Below, in pieces: positions 45,825-52,073 of a stretch of 64,000 nucleotides of DNA. A program made the position numbers and the translations under genes. This DNA is from Leeuwenhoekiella sp. MAR_2009_132. Its GTDB lineage: Bacteria > Bacteroidota > Bacteroidia > Flavobacteriales > Flavobacteriaceae. Each line of letters begins with the position of its first letter. Positions within the stretch are counted from its first letter, which is position 1. A model generated the notes under the pieces. That model searched no databases. It saw only the letters and a program-made list of their open reading frames with translations, and had not been told where the DNA came from. The stretch covers positions 1,612,001 through 1,676,000 of the forward strand of contig NZ_JHZY01000002.1 of the NCBI RefSeq assembly GCF_000687915.1, in the 5' to 3' direction.

Positions 45825-47258
45825 ATGCGTAAAATTGAGAGTATCAGTGTTTTTGACATGCTAAAAGTAGGCGTTGGTCCGTCAAGCTCACATACTTTAG
45901 GTCCCTGGCGTGCTGCCGTGCGATGGATTCAAAAATTGAAAGCCAACAATAGATTTGATAGCGTAACCCAAATTACGGTAGAATTATACGGCTCCTTAAC
46001 GCTTACCGGAAAAGGCCACGCTACCGATATTGCGGTTCTCTTAGGGCTCGAAGGTTTAGACCCTACAACATTTCCTATTGCTGAAATCACAACAGTAATA
46101 AATCGTATTACCACTCAAGAACAGCTGCACTTCAACAGGGAACGCACAATAGGTTTTACACCAAAAAAAGACATAATATTCAATAGAAAATTTAAAGAAT
46201 TTCATCCTAACGGAATAACCTTTAGAGCTCAATTAACCTCGGGCAAAAAGACTTCAGATACTTATTATTCTATAGGTGGTGGTTTTGTGGTTCAGGAAGA
46301 GCGTAAACGATCAAAAATTAAACAACAACAATTAAAGGCATTTCCCTTTCCTGTTGAATCAGGCTTAGAACTTCTCGCCTATTGCAGTGCTGAAAATAAA
46401 AAAATATCAGAAATCGTCTGGGAAAACGAGAAATCACTAGCGACTGAAGAAACTATCAATCACGGGCTGCATCAAATTTGGGAAGTAATGCTCGACTCCA
46501 TGTATACAGGATGTCATACCGAAGGTATTTTACCGGGAGGCCTCAATGTACGCCGAAGAGCTTTTGACACGCATAAGACACTCATAGGTGAAAGCAAATA
46601 CAGTAATGCACACGAGTGGATTGAGTGCATACGCGGCACAGAAGTAAAATTTAGACAAATCCTAAAATGGGTATCCTGTTTTGCTCTGGCGGTAAATGAA
46701 GTGAATGCATCGTTAGGTCGCGTGGTTACCGCACCTACTAACGGGAGTGCAGGCGTTATCCCTGCGGTGATGATGTATTATTTAGTGATTGAAAATCACG
46801 ATGCCAATTTTGATGACATTAAACAATTTATGCTGGTCGCTGCCGAAATAGGAAGCTTGTTTAAAAAAGGCGCAACCATATCTGCTGCAATGGGTGGTTG
46901 CCAGGCAGAAATAGGCGTATCTAGTGCAATGGCTGCGGGTGCCCTTACCGAACTTATGGGTGGTTCTCCTGAACAGGTATTAATGGCAAGTGAGATCGCG
47001 ATGGAGCATCACCTGGGCTTAACTTGTGACCCTATTGGGGGATTAGTACAAATACCGTGTATAGAACGCAATGCAATGGGCGCAATTAAAGCAATTAACG
47101 CGTGTGAGATGGCTCTTGACACCGACGCTAAGAATGCAAAAGTTCCGCTAGATAAGGTTATTGAAACGATGTGGCAAACAGCTAAAGATATGAATTCAAA
47201 GTATAAAGAGACCAGTGAAGGTGGTCTTGCTGTAAATGTTGCTTTAAGCGACTGCTAA
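45825..47258 (+). CDS. sdaA: L-serine ammonia-lyase (iron-sulfur, single chain)
   Basis: Deaminates L-serine to pyruvate and ammonia. The 477 residues combine the beta domain (SISVFDMLKVGVGPSSSHTLGPWRAA, N-terminal) and the catalytic alpha domain in one chain. The alpha domain holds the cluster-binding cysteines, seen in GGCQAEIGVSSAMAAGAL and LTCDPIGGLVQIPCIERN. ILPGGLNVRRRA and APTNGSAGVIPAVMMYY are also typical. It ends with a 4-base overlap with the convergent MACPF-ankyrin gene. Confidence 0.96.
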   Translation: MRKIESISVFDMLKVGVGPSSSHTLGPWRAAVRWIQKLKANNRFDSVTQITVELYGSLTLTGKGHATDIAVLLGLEGLDPTTFPIAEITTVINRITTQEQLHFNRERTIGFTPKKDIIFNRKFKEFHPNGITFRAQLTSGKKTSDTYYSIGGGFVVQEERKRSKIKQQQLKAFPFPVESGLELLAYCSAENKKISEIVWENEKSLATEETINHGLHQIWEVMLDSMYTGCHTEGILPGGLNVRRRAFDTHKTLIGESKYSNAHEWIECIRGTEVKFRQILKWVSCFALAVNEVNASLGRVVTAPTNGSAGVIPAVMMYYLVIENHDANFDDIKQFMLVAAEIGSLFKKGATISAAMGGCQAEIGVSSAMAAGALTELMGGSPEQVLMASEIAMEHHLGLTCDPIGGLVQIPCIERNAMGAIKAINACEMALDTDAKNAKVPLDKVIETMWQTAKDMNSKYKETSEGGLAVNVALSDC

Positions 47259-50200
47259 CGCAGTTCTAATCGCTTTAATAACTGCCGTATTTCTTTAGAC
47301 GCAGCGTAATCTGCTACAGATTTATTGGCAACCGTTTCAGCTTCGGGTAAAGCACCATTGCGTATTAATTTTGTTATTATAATTTCATTGTCAACCCCTC
47401 CCTTCACGGCCCAGTGTAATGGGGTTTCGCCCAGATTATTTTTAGCATTTACATTTACTCCCGCTTTAAAGAGTTCATCCAATAAGACCTCATCATCTTC
47501 TTCATAAGTTGCTGCTATTAAATGTAATACCGTATTACCTTCAGCATCAGTTACGGTAACAGATAAGTCCTGACCAATAAGTATAGGTATCGCAGCGTTA
47601 AAATGAGTATTTGCTGCTTTCAATAAGTCCTCAGCGTGAGCTAAGGCACCTCTTCGCAATGCAAGAATTAACGCTGTTTCATTCTTATATTGAAAAGCAG
47701 CTTCAAATGCCAAATCAGGTTTATCAAGTTGACCTATCAAATAATCTACAGCTACATTTTTTTCACTTTTAATAGCATTTATGAGAAAACGTTCTTCTAA
47801 AATATCAGGATTTGATTGTTCTAAGAGCTGTAATACAATAGGTTGGTTTTCCAAAGCAATTGAAAGATCTAAGGCTTCTTGAGTAACCTGGACCCCTTGC
47901 CTAATTGCCATTGTAACAAGCTCCGGATTTTGAAGTTTAATTAAATCAAGCACCACCAGGTTTACATCTATTTGCCCGGTCTCTAGCAATCGTCTTACCA
48001 AATCCTCATTACCCAGCGCGACTGCTTTCTGAATAAGACTGGCATCTTGAGCGATAGCTCCAGCTTCAATCAAATATTGAGTCAGCGCAGTATTGCCAAC
48101 ACTAACGGCTTCTACGAGTGCAGTCTGGGGTTTTCCTCCCATAGAAATCAATAATGCTAGTAGTTCTTGATTATCATTTTTAACAGCTTGTATCATCTGA
48201 GAATCAGCATCAAGCACTACGCCTTTTTTACTGAAGGTATAGCGTGCAAATTCAAGTTCATTTAAAGCTACCGCAGTATTCAAACCCGTTTGAGGGTCTC
48301 CTTCATACGTGTCTAATACGTCTTTAAATAACTCAAAATCCTTCTGCCGCACAGCATATTCAAAAACGGAATTGGCATTTGCTCCTTTTGATAAACTCAA
48401 CCGCACCGCATTTGTATTTTTTGATTTTAAGGCTTGTGAAAGAGCAAATTCTGCAGATCCTCCAGAATCTAAAGCTTTGTTTAGAATATCAAGATTATTG
48501 TTTGCAATAGCCGTACTTAAAACCTCATCGGTTATTTCAACGGCTCCCTGAGTAATAAAATAATCAAATAATTGCGTATTATCAGAAGTAGCTACAACCT
48601 CAATGACCCTAGCCGAATTTTTTGATACTGCTTTTACCAGGTCAAGCACTTCCTGATTTTTGGTATCTATAGCAAGCTTTAATATTTCAGGATTTGACAC
48701 CGCACCATAACCTATAAATTTTTCGGTTAACTCTTTATCTGCATTGGCTACTGCTAGTGCCAGCATATTTTCTTCGGCTACAAAACCGTTATAATCTAAG
48801 GACATCAAAGCCTTAATAACCTTATAATTCTGCAGTTTAGCAGCAAAGGCAACATCATTATTAACCGAGGTTGCTCCTTCTCTCAACAATGCATAAACGA
48901 CTTCGGGCTCCTGATAGGCTACCGCTTTGTAAATCATATTATTTTTAGGTTTAGCACCCCGTTCTAAAAGGGCAATTGCTTTTGCTTTGGTGAAATAATC
49001 TGGATCAAAAGCCAGGTCCAGATCCTCTGTGGTAGGTTTTACTCCAAAATCAAATACCTGATTCAATAAATAGGCATCATCAAAATTCTGAATTAATGCT
49101 TTGACCACGCCATTTGTGCGCCGTGAAGCTCCTTCAAAATAGAGCTGCTCCAGATCCTGCATTGAACCACTTGCCGCGGCAGCTACAACTTCAGAATCTA
49201 ATGAGTAGTCATAGCCAGTACTAAAAGACTGTAAAGCTTTTTTAGTTTTTACCAGTTCAAGGCTATACGCCACTTTAAATACATCATTATCTATGGTTGT
49301 GATGGTAACCTCTTTGTACACCGGTTTAACAAGTGCCTCCTTAAAATAAGTATGCGCGTCTGTTGTTCCTGAAACAAATAAGGTAGTTCGCTTCTCCCCT
49401 TTTACCAGTTTTTGAGTGTCATCCCAAACGCTAACATATGCATTTTTTAGTTCTTCAGGTGAAATGATAAAATCAAGCATTTTATTCACATTAATCTCTT
49501 CATCTGTAAGTAATGTGTTTAAATCTAAACCGTTGTAATCTATGAGTGCGGTGGTTTTCATAGGTTCGCCGTGCTCATTAAAACTGCCAAAAAACAAATC
49601 ACCTATATAGCTTTTTGTGTCTTGCTCTTCTGTGCCTACACTCTGCTTAATTAGCTTACCTATCTTTTGCGTAAACTGTAATGAATATTTTTTAAAAAAT
49701 TCTGAAGAGCGTTCTTTTGCCTGCCAGGAAACCGATTTTTTAATGGCGGCATCAATCGCTTCCTGCAGCATAAAACGCTTGTCTTGGAGATTTTCTAATT
49801 CTGGAAAATTTTTAGTCGAAAGTAAATTGGTAAGCGCTACCAGATTGGCGTCAATAACTACAGCATTAGCTGTATTAACAGTTTGCTCCCAGCGCTCATC
49901 CCACGCTTCTGCAGTCTCGCCCCCAATTGTATAATATTGTGCAGGAGCAAGATGTATATAAGGATCTGTTATTGGCGAATTTTGCTGTTGTTGTGCTATA
50001 GATTTTAAAACGGCAGCTCTAAATTCGTTTTCAGAATAGGGAGACTCAATGTAGTCTTGCCTGCGTATCGCATTTTTACTTATAAAAGTACCACCATAAG
50101 TAAGATGCTCTGCGTAATGAGTACCAAATTTTGATATAAAACCTTGCGGAGTTAAATCTCTACCCAGTCTAAAAACTGCATCTCTAAAGTTTTCAGAAAG

Positions 50201-50629
50201 TGTAGTTTCTAATAAACGGCGCTCATAAAGGGGTTTCTGTCGTAAACAAAAAACGACTAAAAATTCGTCTGATTTATCTAAAGCATCATTAGCATTATAT
50301 ACCGAAGAAAATCGTGATGAATAAGCTCTAGCAGAAGTATCTACTTTTAAAATATGCTTCTCAAATTCATAAGCTGAATTAACAAACTCGTAGTTAAGTT
50401 GTGATTTCCGGGTAGTTTTAAGCTTTGAAGTTTCCTTTAAATTTTCAGTATTAAAAATTGAATTACTATCACCCGATACAACTGAATTCTTATTAAAATT
50501 CAACGGATCTACAAATCGAATGTCTACAGAAAAACCGGGGTTTAAGGCAGATTCCCCAGCTTTTTGCTGTGCAGAGATACGTAAGATACCAAGAAATATG
50601 ATGAAATAGAAAAACCTGAAATTAATCAA
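47255..50629 (-). CDS. Secreted MACPF-domain protein with ankyrin-type repeats
   Basis: A 1124-residue exported protein. Residues 1-20 form a signal peptide (ending ISA-QQ). About 60-330 is a membrane-attack-complex/perforin region: FGTHYAEHLTYGG (168-180) is the MACPF signature (Y/F-G-T-H-Y/F-x6-GG), followed by YYTIGGETAEAWDERWEQTV. A spacer follows (about 330-470), then some twenty ankyrin-like repeats of about 31-33 residues to the C terminus; the last are closest to consensus (AGVNVNAKNNLGETPLHWAVKGG), the earlier ones degenerate. MACPF proteins form membrane pores or bind surfaces; ankyrin repeats bind proteins. The target is unknown. A separate NTF2-like secreted-protein gene lies 102 bases upstream on the same strand. 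Confidence 0.85.
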   Translation of the reverse strand: MINFRFFYFIIFLGILRISAQQKAGESALNPGFSVDIRFVDPLNFNKNSVVSGDSNSIFNTENLKETSKLKTTRKSQLNYEFVNSAYEFEKHILKVDTSARAYSSRFSSVYNANDALDKSDEFLVVFCLRQKPLYERRLLETTLSENFRDAVFRLGRDLTPQGFISKFGTHYAEHLTYGGTFISKNAIRRQDYIESPYSENEFRAAVLKSIAQQQQNSPITDPYIHLAPAQYYTIGGETAEAWDERWEQTVNTANAVVIDANLVALTNLLSTKNFPELENLQDKRFMLQEAIDAAIKKSVSWQAKERSSEFFKKYSLQFTQKIGKLIKQSVGTEEQDTKSYIGDLFFGSFNEHGEPMKTTALIDYNGLDLNTLLTDEEINVNKMLDFIISPEELKNAYVSVWDDTQKLVKGEKRTTLFVSGTTDAHTYFKEALVKPVYKEVTITTIDNDVFKVAYSLELVKTKKALQSFSTGYDYSLDSEVVAAAASGSMQDLEQLYFEGASRRTNGVVKALIQNFDDAYLLNQVFDFGVKPTTEDLDLAFDPDYFTKAKAIALLERGAKPKNNMIYKAVAYQEPEVVYALLREGATSVNNDVAFAAKLQNYKVIKALMSLDYNGFVAEENMLALAVANADKELTEKFIGYGAVSNPEILKLAIDTKNQEVLDLVKAVSKNSARVIEVVATSDNTQLFDYFITQGAVEITDEVLSTAIANNNLDILNKALDSGGSAEFALSQALKSKNTNAVRLSLSKGANANSVFEYAVRQKDFELFKDVLDTYEGDPQTGLNTAVALNELEFARYTFSKKGVVLDADSQMIQAVKNDNQELLALLISMGGKPQTALVEAVSVGNTALTQYLIEAGAIAQDASLIQKAVALGNEDLVRRLLETGQIDVNLVVLDLIKLQNPELVTMAIRQGVQVTQEALDLSIALENQPIVLQLLEQSNPDILEERFLINAIKSEKNVAVDYLIGQLDKPDLAFEAAFQYKNETALILALRRGALAHAEDLLKAANTHFNAAIPILIGQDLSVTVTDAEGNTVLHLIAATYEEDDEVLLDELFKAGVNVNAKNNLGETPLHWAVKGGVDNEIIITKLIRNGALPEAETVANKSVADYAASKEIRQLLKRLELR

Positions 50630-50731: not shown

Positions 50732-51181
50732 CTAGTTACAATCTTCTGTTTTTCGGGTATCTACGATATAAAAAATTTTCCACTGCTTTTCTATAAACAA
50801 AAGCTGAAAATTATTTACACCACAATGGCTGCGTTTATAATCTACATAAAACTCATAAGGTGTCCATACATTTGCCATAACTCCATCTGAGGTTACTTTA
50901 TAATCTAAAATGCGCTCCTGAAACACGGTAGTTTCTGGTATGGAGGCTATAGATTTTAAAAAATCATTAAAGTTTGAAGTTGTAAGTGTAGGTACTCCCG
51001 TTTTACTTTTAGCAATTGACTGCATTCTTACTCTAGGGTGTACTAGGTTTCTTAAAGCAACGGTATCCTGTTGATGAAAAGCATTAAAAAATGCAATAAT
51101 GGTTTCTTCTGGTTTAGGCTGATCCTGAGCACACAAGATGCAGCTCACGCAAAAAGAAATAAGAAGAATTAAGGTTTTCAT
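50732..51181 (-). CDS. Secreted NTF2/SnoaL-like protein
   Basis: A 149-residue protein with a signal peptide (about 1-18, ending LCA-QDQ). The mature part looks like a small NTF2-like fold: PEETIIAFFNAFHQQDTVALRNLVHPRVRM is the usual first helix and hairpin, and GVMANVWTPYEFYVDYKRSHCGVNNFQLLFIEKQWKIFYIVDTR the strand-rich end. Members are often binding or enzyme-like proteins with no fixed function. It is on the same strand as the MACPF-ankyrin gene, 102 bases upstream of it, and may be cotranscribed. Function unknown. Confidence 0.78.
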   Translation of the reverse strand: MKTLILLISFCVSCILCAQDQPKPEETIIAFFNAFHQQDTVALRNLVHPRVRMQSIAKSKTGVPTLTTSNFNDFLKSIASIPETTVFQERILDYKVTSDGVMANVWTPYEFYVDYKRSHCGVNNFQLLFIEKQWKIFYIVDTRKTEDCN

Positions 51182-51254: not shown

Positions 51255-52073
51255 ATGTCTGCAATCAAAAAAGAATATAAACGTATAACCGTAAAATCAC
51301 TTACTGAGATGAAGTCTCAGGGTGAAAAAATTGCAATGCTTACGGCATACGATTACACTATGGCCACTATTGTTGATCGCGCCGGTATAGATGTGATACT
51401 CGTAGGAGATTCTGCATCTAATGTGATGGCAGGTCACGAGACCACATTACCTATAACATTAGACCAGATGATCTATCACGCGTCTTCTGTGGTACGTGCA
51501 ATTAAACGCGCACTGGTTGTTGTAGACTTACCTTTTGGGAGTTATCAAAGTGATCCTAAAGAGGCGTTGCGCTCTGCTATACGTATTATGAAAGAGAGCG
51601 GCGGACACGCAGTTAAATTAGAAGGTGGTACCGAAATTAAAGAATCGGTAAAACGTATTCTTCATGCAGGAATTCCTGTAATGGGACACCTAGGATTAAC
51701 ACCACAATCTATTTATAAATTCGGGACCTATACCGTACGAGCTAAAGAAGAAGAAGAAGCTCAAAAGCTGAAAGAAGACGCACTGCTTCTAGAACGATTA
51801 GGATGTTTTGCAGTGGTACTGGAGAAAGTACCTAACCAGCTTGCCCGTGAAGTGGCAGAGAGTCTTACGATACCTGTGATAGGAATAGGTGCCGGTAACG
51901 GGGTTGATGGTCAGGTTCTGGTTATGCACGATATGCTGGGAATGAGTCAGGAATTTAGTCCGAGGTTTTTAAGACGTTATCTGGACTTACACACGCAAAT
52001 GACGGGTGCTTTTGAGCAATACATTACCGATGTAAAGTCACTAGACTTTCCTAACGATGATGAGCAATACTAA
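51255..52073 (+). CDS. panB: 3-methyl-2-oxobutanoate hydroxymethyltransferase
   Basis: Transfers a hydroxymethyl group from methylenetetrahydrofolate to 2-oxoisovalerate, the first step of pantothenate synthesis. The 272 residues match the (beta/alpha)8 family: [68 protein letters not shown] and [22 protein letters not shown]. Start ATG at 51255. It precedes the RluA-type gene by 46 bases; other pan genes are absent from the window. Confidence 0.96.

Follow-up and report, generated by a model that had tools for sequence, protein, structure and literature searches.

The Locus and Its Product

The window analyzed here, a 64,000-nucleotide stretch of DNA from Leeuwenhoekiella sp. MAR_2009_132, encodes a protein of 1124 residues that joins a MACPF domain to ankyrin-type repeats (47255..50629, minus strand; all parts of the gene given below lie on this strand). 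A first-pass annotation had described a single polypeptide at this position. The open reading frame, Pfam matches, predicted models, and full-length homologues bear this out and define a complete coding sequence with a TTG start. The order of domains is signal peptide, MACPF, C2-like domain, and ankyrin-type array. Judged by eye, residues 1–20 (50570..50629) form a signal peptide of the Sec type ending in ...ISAQ/Q, as had been proposed. The MACPF domain spans residues 30–312 (49694..50542) and matches PF01823 with 37.5 bits in a Pfam profile search, well above the curated cutoff of 21.5. The annotated MACPF signature, FGTHYAEHLTYGG, maps to residues 168–180 in the homologue alignment (50090..50128). 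Signatures of this family take the form GTH...GG, and the corresponding residues G169, T170, H171, G179, and G180 are unchanged in 20 of 20 aligned homologues. The predicted model of this region shows a bent sheet with flanking clusters of helices, the outcome that the first-pass annotation had anticipated from structure prediction. By profile, signature, and predicted fold, the window protein is a member of the MACPF/CDC superfamily.

Directly C-terminal to the MACPF domain, the predicted model contains a previously unreported part, a C2-like β-sandwich (residues 313–465, 49235..49693). The remainder of the protein consists of 22 ankyrin-type helix pairs (residues 477–1124, 47258..49201). Both an ankyrin profile (Pfam) and the stacked helix pairs of the predicted model identify this array, and the earlier count of roughly twenty repeats was close. 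The first helices of consecutive pairs are spaced by 24–31 residues in 19 of 21 steps and by more in the final two. The first repeats (residues 477–612, 48794..49201) are the best-conserved part of the protein and are retained in a truncated homologue (L025). Because ankyrins filled the VIA results for the full model, a separate model of the N-terminal part was made and used for a structure search of its own.

The gene lies between two genes that we take to be sdaA-like and panB-like. The former (45825..47258, plus strand) is convergent with the MACPF–ankyrin gene, overlaps it by 4 bases, and forms one border of what we call the panB–sdaA site; the latter (51255..52073, plus strand) forms the opposite border. 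The direct upstream neighbor encodes a small exported NTF2-like protein (50732..51181, minus strand). This protein probably neither provides immunity nor acts as a partner, since the genome G399 keeps the NTF2-like gene and lacks the MACPF–ankyrin gene. The partnership is also unlikely because the NTF2-like gene was not found beside three copies at panB sites (L018, L024, and L026) or beside Dokdonia-type copies, and because relatives occur elsewhere in the family (107 proteins), including Flavobacterium. We therefore judge it to be outside the system. Between the window and L005, the NTF2-like protein shows 53% identity and a dN/dS of 0.32; identities in four other species pairs are 80–95%. 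As noted before, no obvious immunity-like gene lies near the MACPF–ankyrin gene.

When the earliest start codon downstream of a stop is used, nine of nine Leeuwenhoekiella copies begin with TTG or GTG (50627–50629 in the window, and L002–L009). These starts may indicate low expression.

Family and Variants

Full-length homologues of 1111–1132 residues fall into two groups, with 48–82% and 34–36% identity to the window protein. The named members of the first group are from Leeuwenhoekiella and those of the second from Dokdonia; further Dokdonia-type sequences share 37–39% identity over residues 30–480. A scan of GTDB species genomes returned 26 loci with the gene, which is carried by 10 of 13 genomes of the window's genus and by 16 of 18 Dokdonia genomes. 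The MACPF–ankyrin gene is no lone oddity: it is widespread in Leeuwenhoekiella and Dokdonia. The genome sets discussed here overlap in that L002–L009 are members of the window's genus and L017, L018, and L025 correspond to G235, G147, and G096; L023 corresponds to G206, so that L062 and L023 are one locus. In a sample of 397 Flavobacteriaceae, carriers were counted by the PF01823 profile together with similarity to the window protein. The resulting count of at least 8 is a lower bound because the homologues P0016 and P0018 carry no MACPF annotation.

In samples of the order and the phylum, a profile of the N-terminal part brought up no clear member from outside Flavobacteriaceae. It matched 6 of 395 genomes in the order sample, three of them strongly (E < 1e-180), and 3 of 395 in the phylum sample, where the genome of the window was the only strong match. 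We read the weak matches, with E values of 6e-25 to 1e-4, as other MACPF proteins. Both searches with the window protein itself were restricted to the candidates that had most words in common with it (7994 and 7992) and may miss distant relatives.

Inspection of domain architecture across the family, as the first-pass annotation had recommended, uncovered LysM-bearing and truncated forms, and inspection of gene neighborhoods uncovered adjacency to curli (csg) genes in the Dokdonia group and at L060. The array measures 644–649 residues in 23 of 29 aligned sequences. Six sequences depart from this length: L018 and L021, which are cut short where contigs end, the LysM forms L024, L026, and L027, and the truncated L025. 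Variation in repeat number of the kind that an arms race would leave was not seen. In the LysM forms, which come from three Flavobacteriaceae MAGs and group as one clade with a support of 100/100, a pair of LysM domains (E 5e-30 to 2e-28) sits midway along the array. LysM is a peptidoglycan-binding domain, and these pairs point to the peptidoglycan layer. L025 encodes a form of 661 residues that ends just past the first conserved repeats. Some of the same genera also encode another, distant MACPF protein, whose open frames measure 986–1002 residues (L054, at G176:C3:62665-63138; G405:C30; G798:C201; and G802:C95).

Export and Localization

Most aligned homologues share a hydrophobic N-terminal segment followed by AQ or SQ, and Q21 is unchanged in 20 of 20. 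The sole cysteine of the window protein is residue 128, with none in the first 40 residues; therefore, the protein has no lipobox. A type IX secretion (T9SS) C-terminal sorting domain was not found among Pfam and NCBIfam matches at E values up to 1, and the protein ends in ankyrin repeats, on which grounds we reject the possibility that it is T9SS cargo. The Sec-type signal, together with the lack of a lipobox and of a T9SS domain, suggests a periplasmic or outer-membrane-associated location. The PADLOC models gave no support to a role in anti-phage defense, with 0 families matching at E values up to 0.1, although absence from that library proves nothing by itself. The curlin and Csg families PF07012, PF03783, PF10614, and PF10627 are not among the Pfam matches of the window protein.

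Genomic Association with Curli Genes

The gene occupies two kinds of genomic site. In the window and in eight Leeuwenhoekiella loci (L002–L009), the gene order is panB, NTF2-like, MACPF–ankyrin, and sdaA-like. The gene also adjoins panB, with or without the NTF2-like gene, at L017, L018, and L024–L027. It is not beside csg genes in the window's genome or at the eight named or MAG Leeuwenhoekiella loci. Dokdonia-group copies adjoin genes identified by Pfam as curlin repeats, CsgE, CsgF, CsgG, and a carboxypeptidase-regulatory-like gene (CarbReg). By tblastn, 11 of 11 Dokdonia-type loci whose flanks are long enough have csg genes within 4 kb, in convergent orientation (L010–L016, L019, L020, L022, and L023; the contig of L021 ends inside the gene). 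The same holds within 4 kb for G190 (L063). Given the convergent orientation, the gene is not part of the csg operon in Dokdonia.

Where mapped (L013, L015, and L063), the gene sits between CarbReg and an AIR-synthase-like gene (AIRS). These two are side by side in 19 of 23 fetched csg clusters that lack the MACPF–ankyrin gene. At L062, an aminotransferase gene occupies the position of AIRS. At L060 (G405, a genome with 9% contamination), the gene is found on the opposite side of the cluster, next to the curlin genes, and AIRS directly follows CarbReg. With one flank used in Dokdonia and the other in L060, the gene has come to adjoin csg in two different positions. The labels csg site and panB site need two changes on the family tree, a number that 0 of 500 shuffles matched or undercut; L060 is a long branch on this tree, and its position is unsure.

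Two features of the csg clusters deserve mention in their own right. The CsgG encoded at L062:13476-14945 carries a C-terminal outer-membrane β-barrel-like domain (PF13505), with a PorG match far below cutoff; E. coli CsgG is not known to have such a domain. At L080:9530-10051, an exported protein of 174 residues with weak likeness to CsgA (27.6 bits, cutoff 160) is encoded between the curlin and CsgE genes, and its relatives occur in 23 of 28 mapped csg regions.

As a marker for curli we used CsgF, which among 14 control genomes matched in E. coli only. CsgF is present in 24 of the 26 genomes reached through MACPF–ankyrin loci, compared with 86 of the 397 sampled Flavobacteriaceae. The two exceptions are L017 (G235) and L021. 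G235 also lacks the AIRS gene that flanks csg, so that a gap in the assembly could account for the missing csg genes; L021 comes from a fragmented MAG. Within the sample of 397, seven of the eight carriers have CsgF (Fisher p = 1.2e-4), and counting by genus gives 5 of 6 for carriers against 52 of 231 (p = 0.0034), both with kinship ignored. Genomes with other MACPF proteins in the same sample contain CsgF in only 1 of 6 cases. The reverse relation is loose: 79 of the 86 csg-bearing Flavobacteriaceae lack the MACPF–ankyrin gene.

Within the window's genus, CsgF is found in exactly those 10 of 13 genomes that carry the gene, an agreement of 13/13 (p = 0.0035 with kinship ignored; 0.018 for the 11 high-quality genomes), and in most of these genomes the two loci are separate. 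Among the 18 Dokdonia genomes, 16 have the gene and 17 have CsgF. All 15 with both carry them on a single contig, with about 5–8.5 kb between the MACPF region and CsgF. G795 (99% complete) and G802 (93%) have csg genes and no MACPF–ankyrin gene; the MACPF match of G802 is the distant 986-residue protein and was not counted. G800 (88% complete, 1020 contigs) has the gene and lacks CsgF.

One clear case of nested co-loss was found. G399 branches among carriers, together with L006 and L009 (100/100). Its panB–NTF2–sdaA site is intact except that the MACPF–ankyrin gene is missing. At its csg site, just a CarbReg fragment remains between AIRS and a gene that we take to encode glutamine synthetase III; this fragment lies at L110:6992-7219. 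Since one site is empty and the other emptied, this single lineage has lost two separate loci. Neither the gene nor CsgF is present in G403, but its position in the tree is not firm, and G406, likewise without both, is 81% complete. Taken together, these genome comparisons make a link between the MACPF–ankyrin gene and the curli system well supported. The pattern suggests one-way dependence: curli occurs without the protein, and the protein is rarely seen without curli.

Sequence Divergence and Selection

In five species pairs, dN/dS of the MACPF–ankyrin gene is 0.08–0.17, with several dS values saturated. The same pairs give 0.01–0.02 for panB and 0.01 (CsgF) to 0.49 (curlin) for csg genes. 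The MACPF–ankyrin gene is under purifying selection, with dN/dS inside the range of the csg genes. Between the window and L005, the protein is 67% identical, compared with 98% for panB, 92% for sdaA, and 97% for a 520-residue gene product; CarbReg, CsgE, and curlin diverge at least as far across these five pairs. The best-conserved parts among Leeuwenhoekiella-type sequences are the first repeats (74%) and the C2-like domain (69%), which is why we expect a constant contact there.

The sister species G144 and G329 present a different contrast. Identities are 41% for CsgE, 65% for CsgG, and 69% for CsgF, but 93% for the MACPF–ankyrin protein, and dS is above 2 for CsgE compared with 0.24 for AIRS and 0.18 for the MACPF–ankyrin gene. 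The csg genes adjoining AIRS differ strongly between these genomes (L081 and L122), whereas AIRS itself and other genes hardly differ; it looks as though the species had swapped csg cassettes as a whole. The producer's own curlin (net charge −37) and the ankyrin array (−34) are both acidic, which argues against the array as a charge-guided curlin chaperone and leaves this candidate role unsupported.

Possible Function

The MACPF proteins of bacteria are mostly interpreted as toxins aimed at competitors or as host-directed factors. What the first-pass annotation had observed is confirmed, and its interpretation is partly supported. A role as toxin, adhesin, or receptor gained no direct support. 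The gene is under purifying selection and has a near-constant array, its product lacks the lipid anchor of BSAP toxins, and its distribution follows curli. Our main reading, to which we assign a probability of roughly 45%, is that of a Sec-exported envelope protein working with the producer's own curli (type VIII) fiber system.

The protein could instead be a secreted antibacterial pore-former of the BSAP type, with a MACPF head that punches the membrane of related bacteria and an array that serves as the receptor-binding C-terminal domain. Perforin carries a C2 domain after its MACPF domain, and the predicted MACPF fold followed by a C2-like domain reproduces this arrangement. The C-terminal domain of BSAP-1 indeed provides receptor binding, according to the main text of PMC12853789. 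We nevertheless consider this alternative improbable. Where BSAPs have a lipidated N-terminal cysteine, the first 40 residues of the window protein contain none, and Pfam and NCBIfam yielded no T9SS tail. Neither the nearly constant array length nor the lack of an apparent immunity-like gene nearby fits such a weapon, the LysM forms suit the periplasm better, and the curli link is left unexplained.

An extracellular effector coupled to curli would account for the same csg association. On or beside the fibers, its MACPF head would attack or grip the membranes of cells, bacterial or eukaryotic, that curli adhesion brings near. The identity to L005, below that of the flanking panB, sdaA, and 520-residue genes, would agree with this idea, lower conservation being usual for surface proteins, and the fold matches include α-latrotoxin, which forms pores and has an ankyrin array. 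However, the divergence is unexceptional next to that of CarbReg, CsgE, and curlin, the protein is large and folded, a known surface-export signal was not seen, and the LysM forms speak for another compartment, all of which renders an extracellular effector doubtful. Least probable is a shared lifestyle only, with biofilm formers retaining an envelope MACPF protein that has no direct role in curli: the separate loci of L002–L009, the curli of G795 and G802 that can do without the gene, and csg genes that look exchanged between G144 and G329 while the MACPF–ankyrin gene does not would allow it, but placement on two different csg flanks is hard to explain in this way, and genomes with other MACPF proteins do not track csg.

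As a curli accessory, the protein would stay in the periplasm, where the Sec signal, the absence of a lipid anchor and of a recognized surface tail, and the LysM forms would all place it. The MACPF and C2-like head may sit against the outer membrane from the periplasmic side, perhaps assembled into an oligomer close to the CsgG pore. An ankyrin arm of fixed length would reach into the periplasm and hold a partner, either a csg component or curlin in transit, and the LysM forms would play the same role while held on peptidoglycan. The csg divergence between G144 and G329 at 93% identity of the MACPF–ankyrin protein argues against a closely fitted contact with curlin or CsgE but would allow one with peptidoglycan or with the better-conserved CsgF or CsgG. 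Pore formation, a putative activity of this protein, would be unnecessary for an accessory role.

More tentatively, we envisage a perforin-type protein recruited into the secretion of an amyloid fiber, with the MACPF/C2 head inside the outer membrane and a fixed-length ankyrin or LysM-bearing arm bridging toward the peptidoglycan, where it might organize or gate curli export. If true, this would be, to our knowledge, the first MACPF protein that serves the producing bacterium's own secretion system. Comparative genomics ties one MACPF family to the producer's curli machinery and thereby offers a concrete, testable non-toxin role. The natural LysM-bearing, truncated, and full-length variants provide material for dissecting the protein. 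The association also suggests an unlisted curli accessory in Bacteroidota, where csgC is reported absent (missing from Bacteroidetes genera in the account given in PMC3521004).

Comparison with Known Systems

The titles and the openings of abstracts in the matches listed describe neither a curli-linked MACPF protein nor a bacterial MACPF–ankyrin protein. We know of no ankyrin array in perforin-1 or perforin-2/MPEG-1. The MACPF span covers 279–281 model residues in the window protein compared with 307–310 in perforin-2/MPEG-1. The main text of PMC12853789 describes BSAPs as surface lipoproteins with an N-terminal cysteine and an export signal, and groups the C-terminal domains of Bacteroidota MACPF proteins from 214 representatives. 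A word search of that main text gave no mention of ankyrin or curli; its supplementary tables may list an ankyrin group. Compared with the BSAP and Bth-MACPF (PDB 3kk7) proteins of Bacteroidales, which are lipoproteins with small and varied C-terminal domains, the window protein has a plain signal peptide, a C2-like domain followed by 22 ankyrin-type repeats, and a link to csg. As far as a lipid anchor can be judged from the sequence, it is not a BSAP.

In overall design, a pore-forming head followed by a long C-terminal ankyrin array, the protein resembles α-latrotoxin. A Foldseek search with the complete model lists this spider venom protein (9goa) at an E value of 2e-11, probably through the ankyrin part. 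The head of α-latrotoxin is not known to be a MACPF domain, and the resemblance is one of design only, with no kinship implied. The curli accessory proteins CsgE, CsgF, and CsgC are small, no domain kinship to them was found, and, unlike theirs, the MACPF–ankyrin gene lies outside the csg operon. What the protein has in common with them is its genomic company and the character of an exported envelope protein, which in their case serves curli export.
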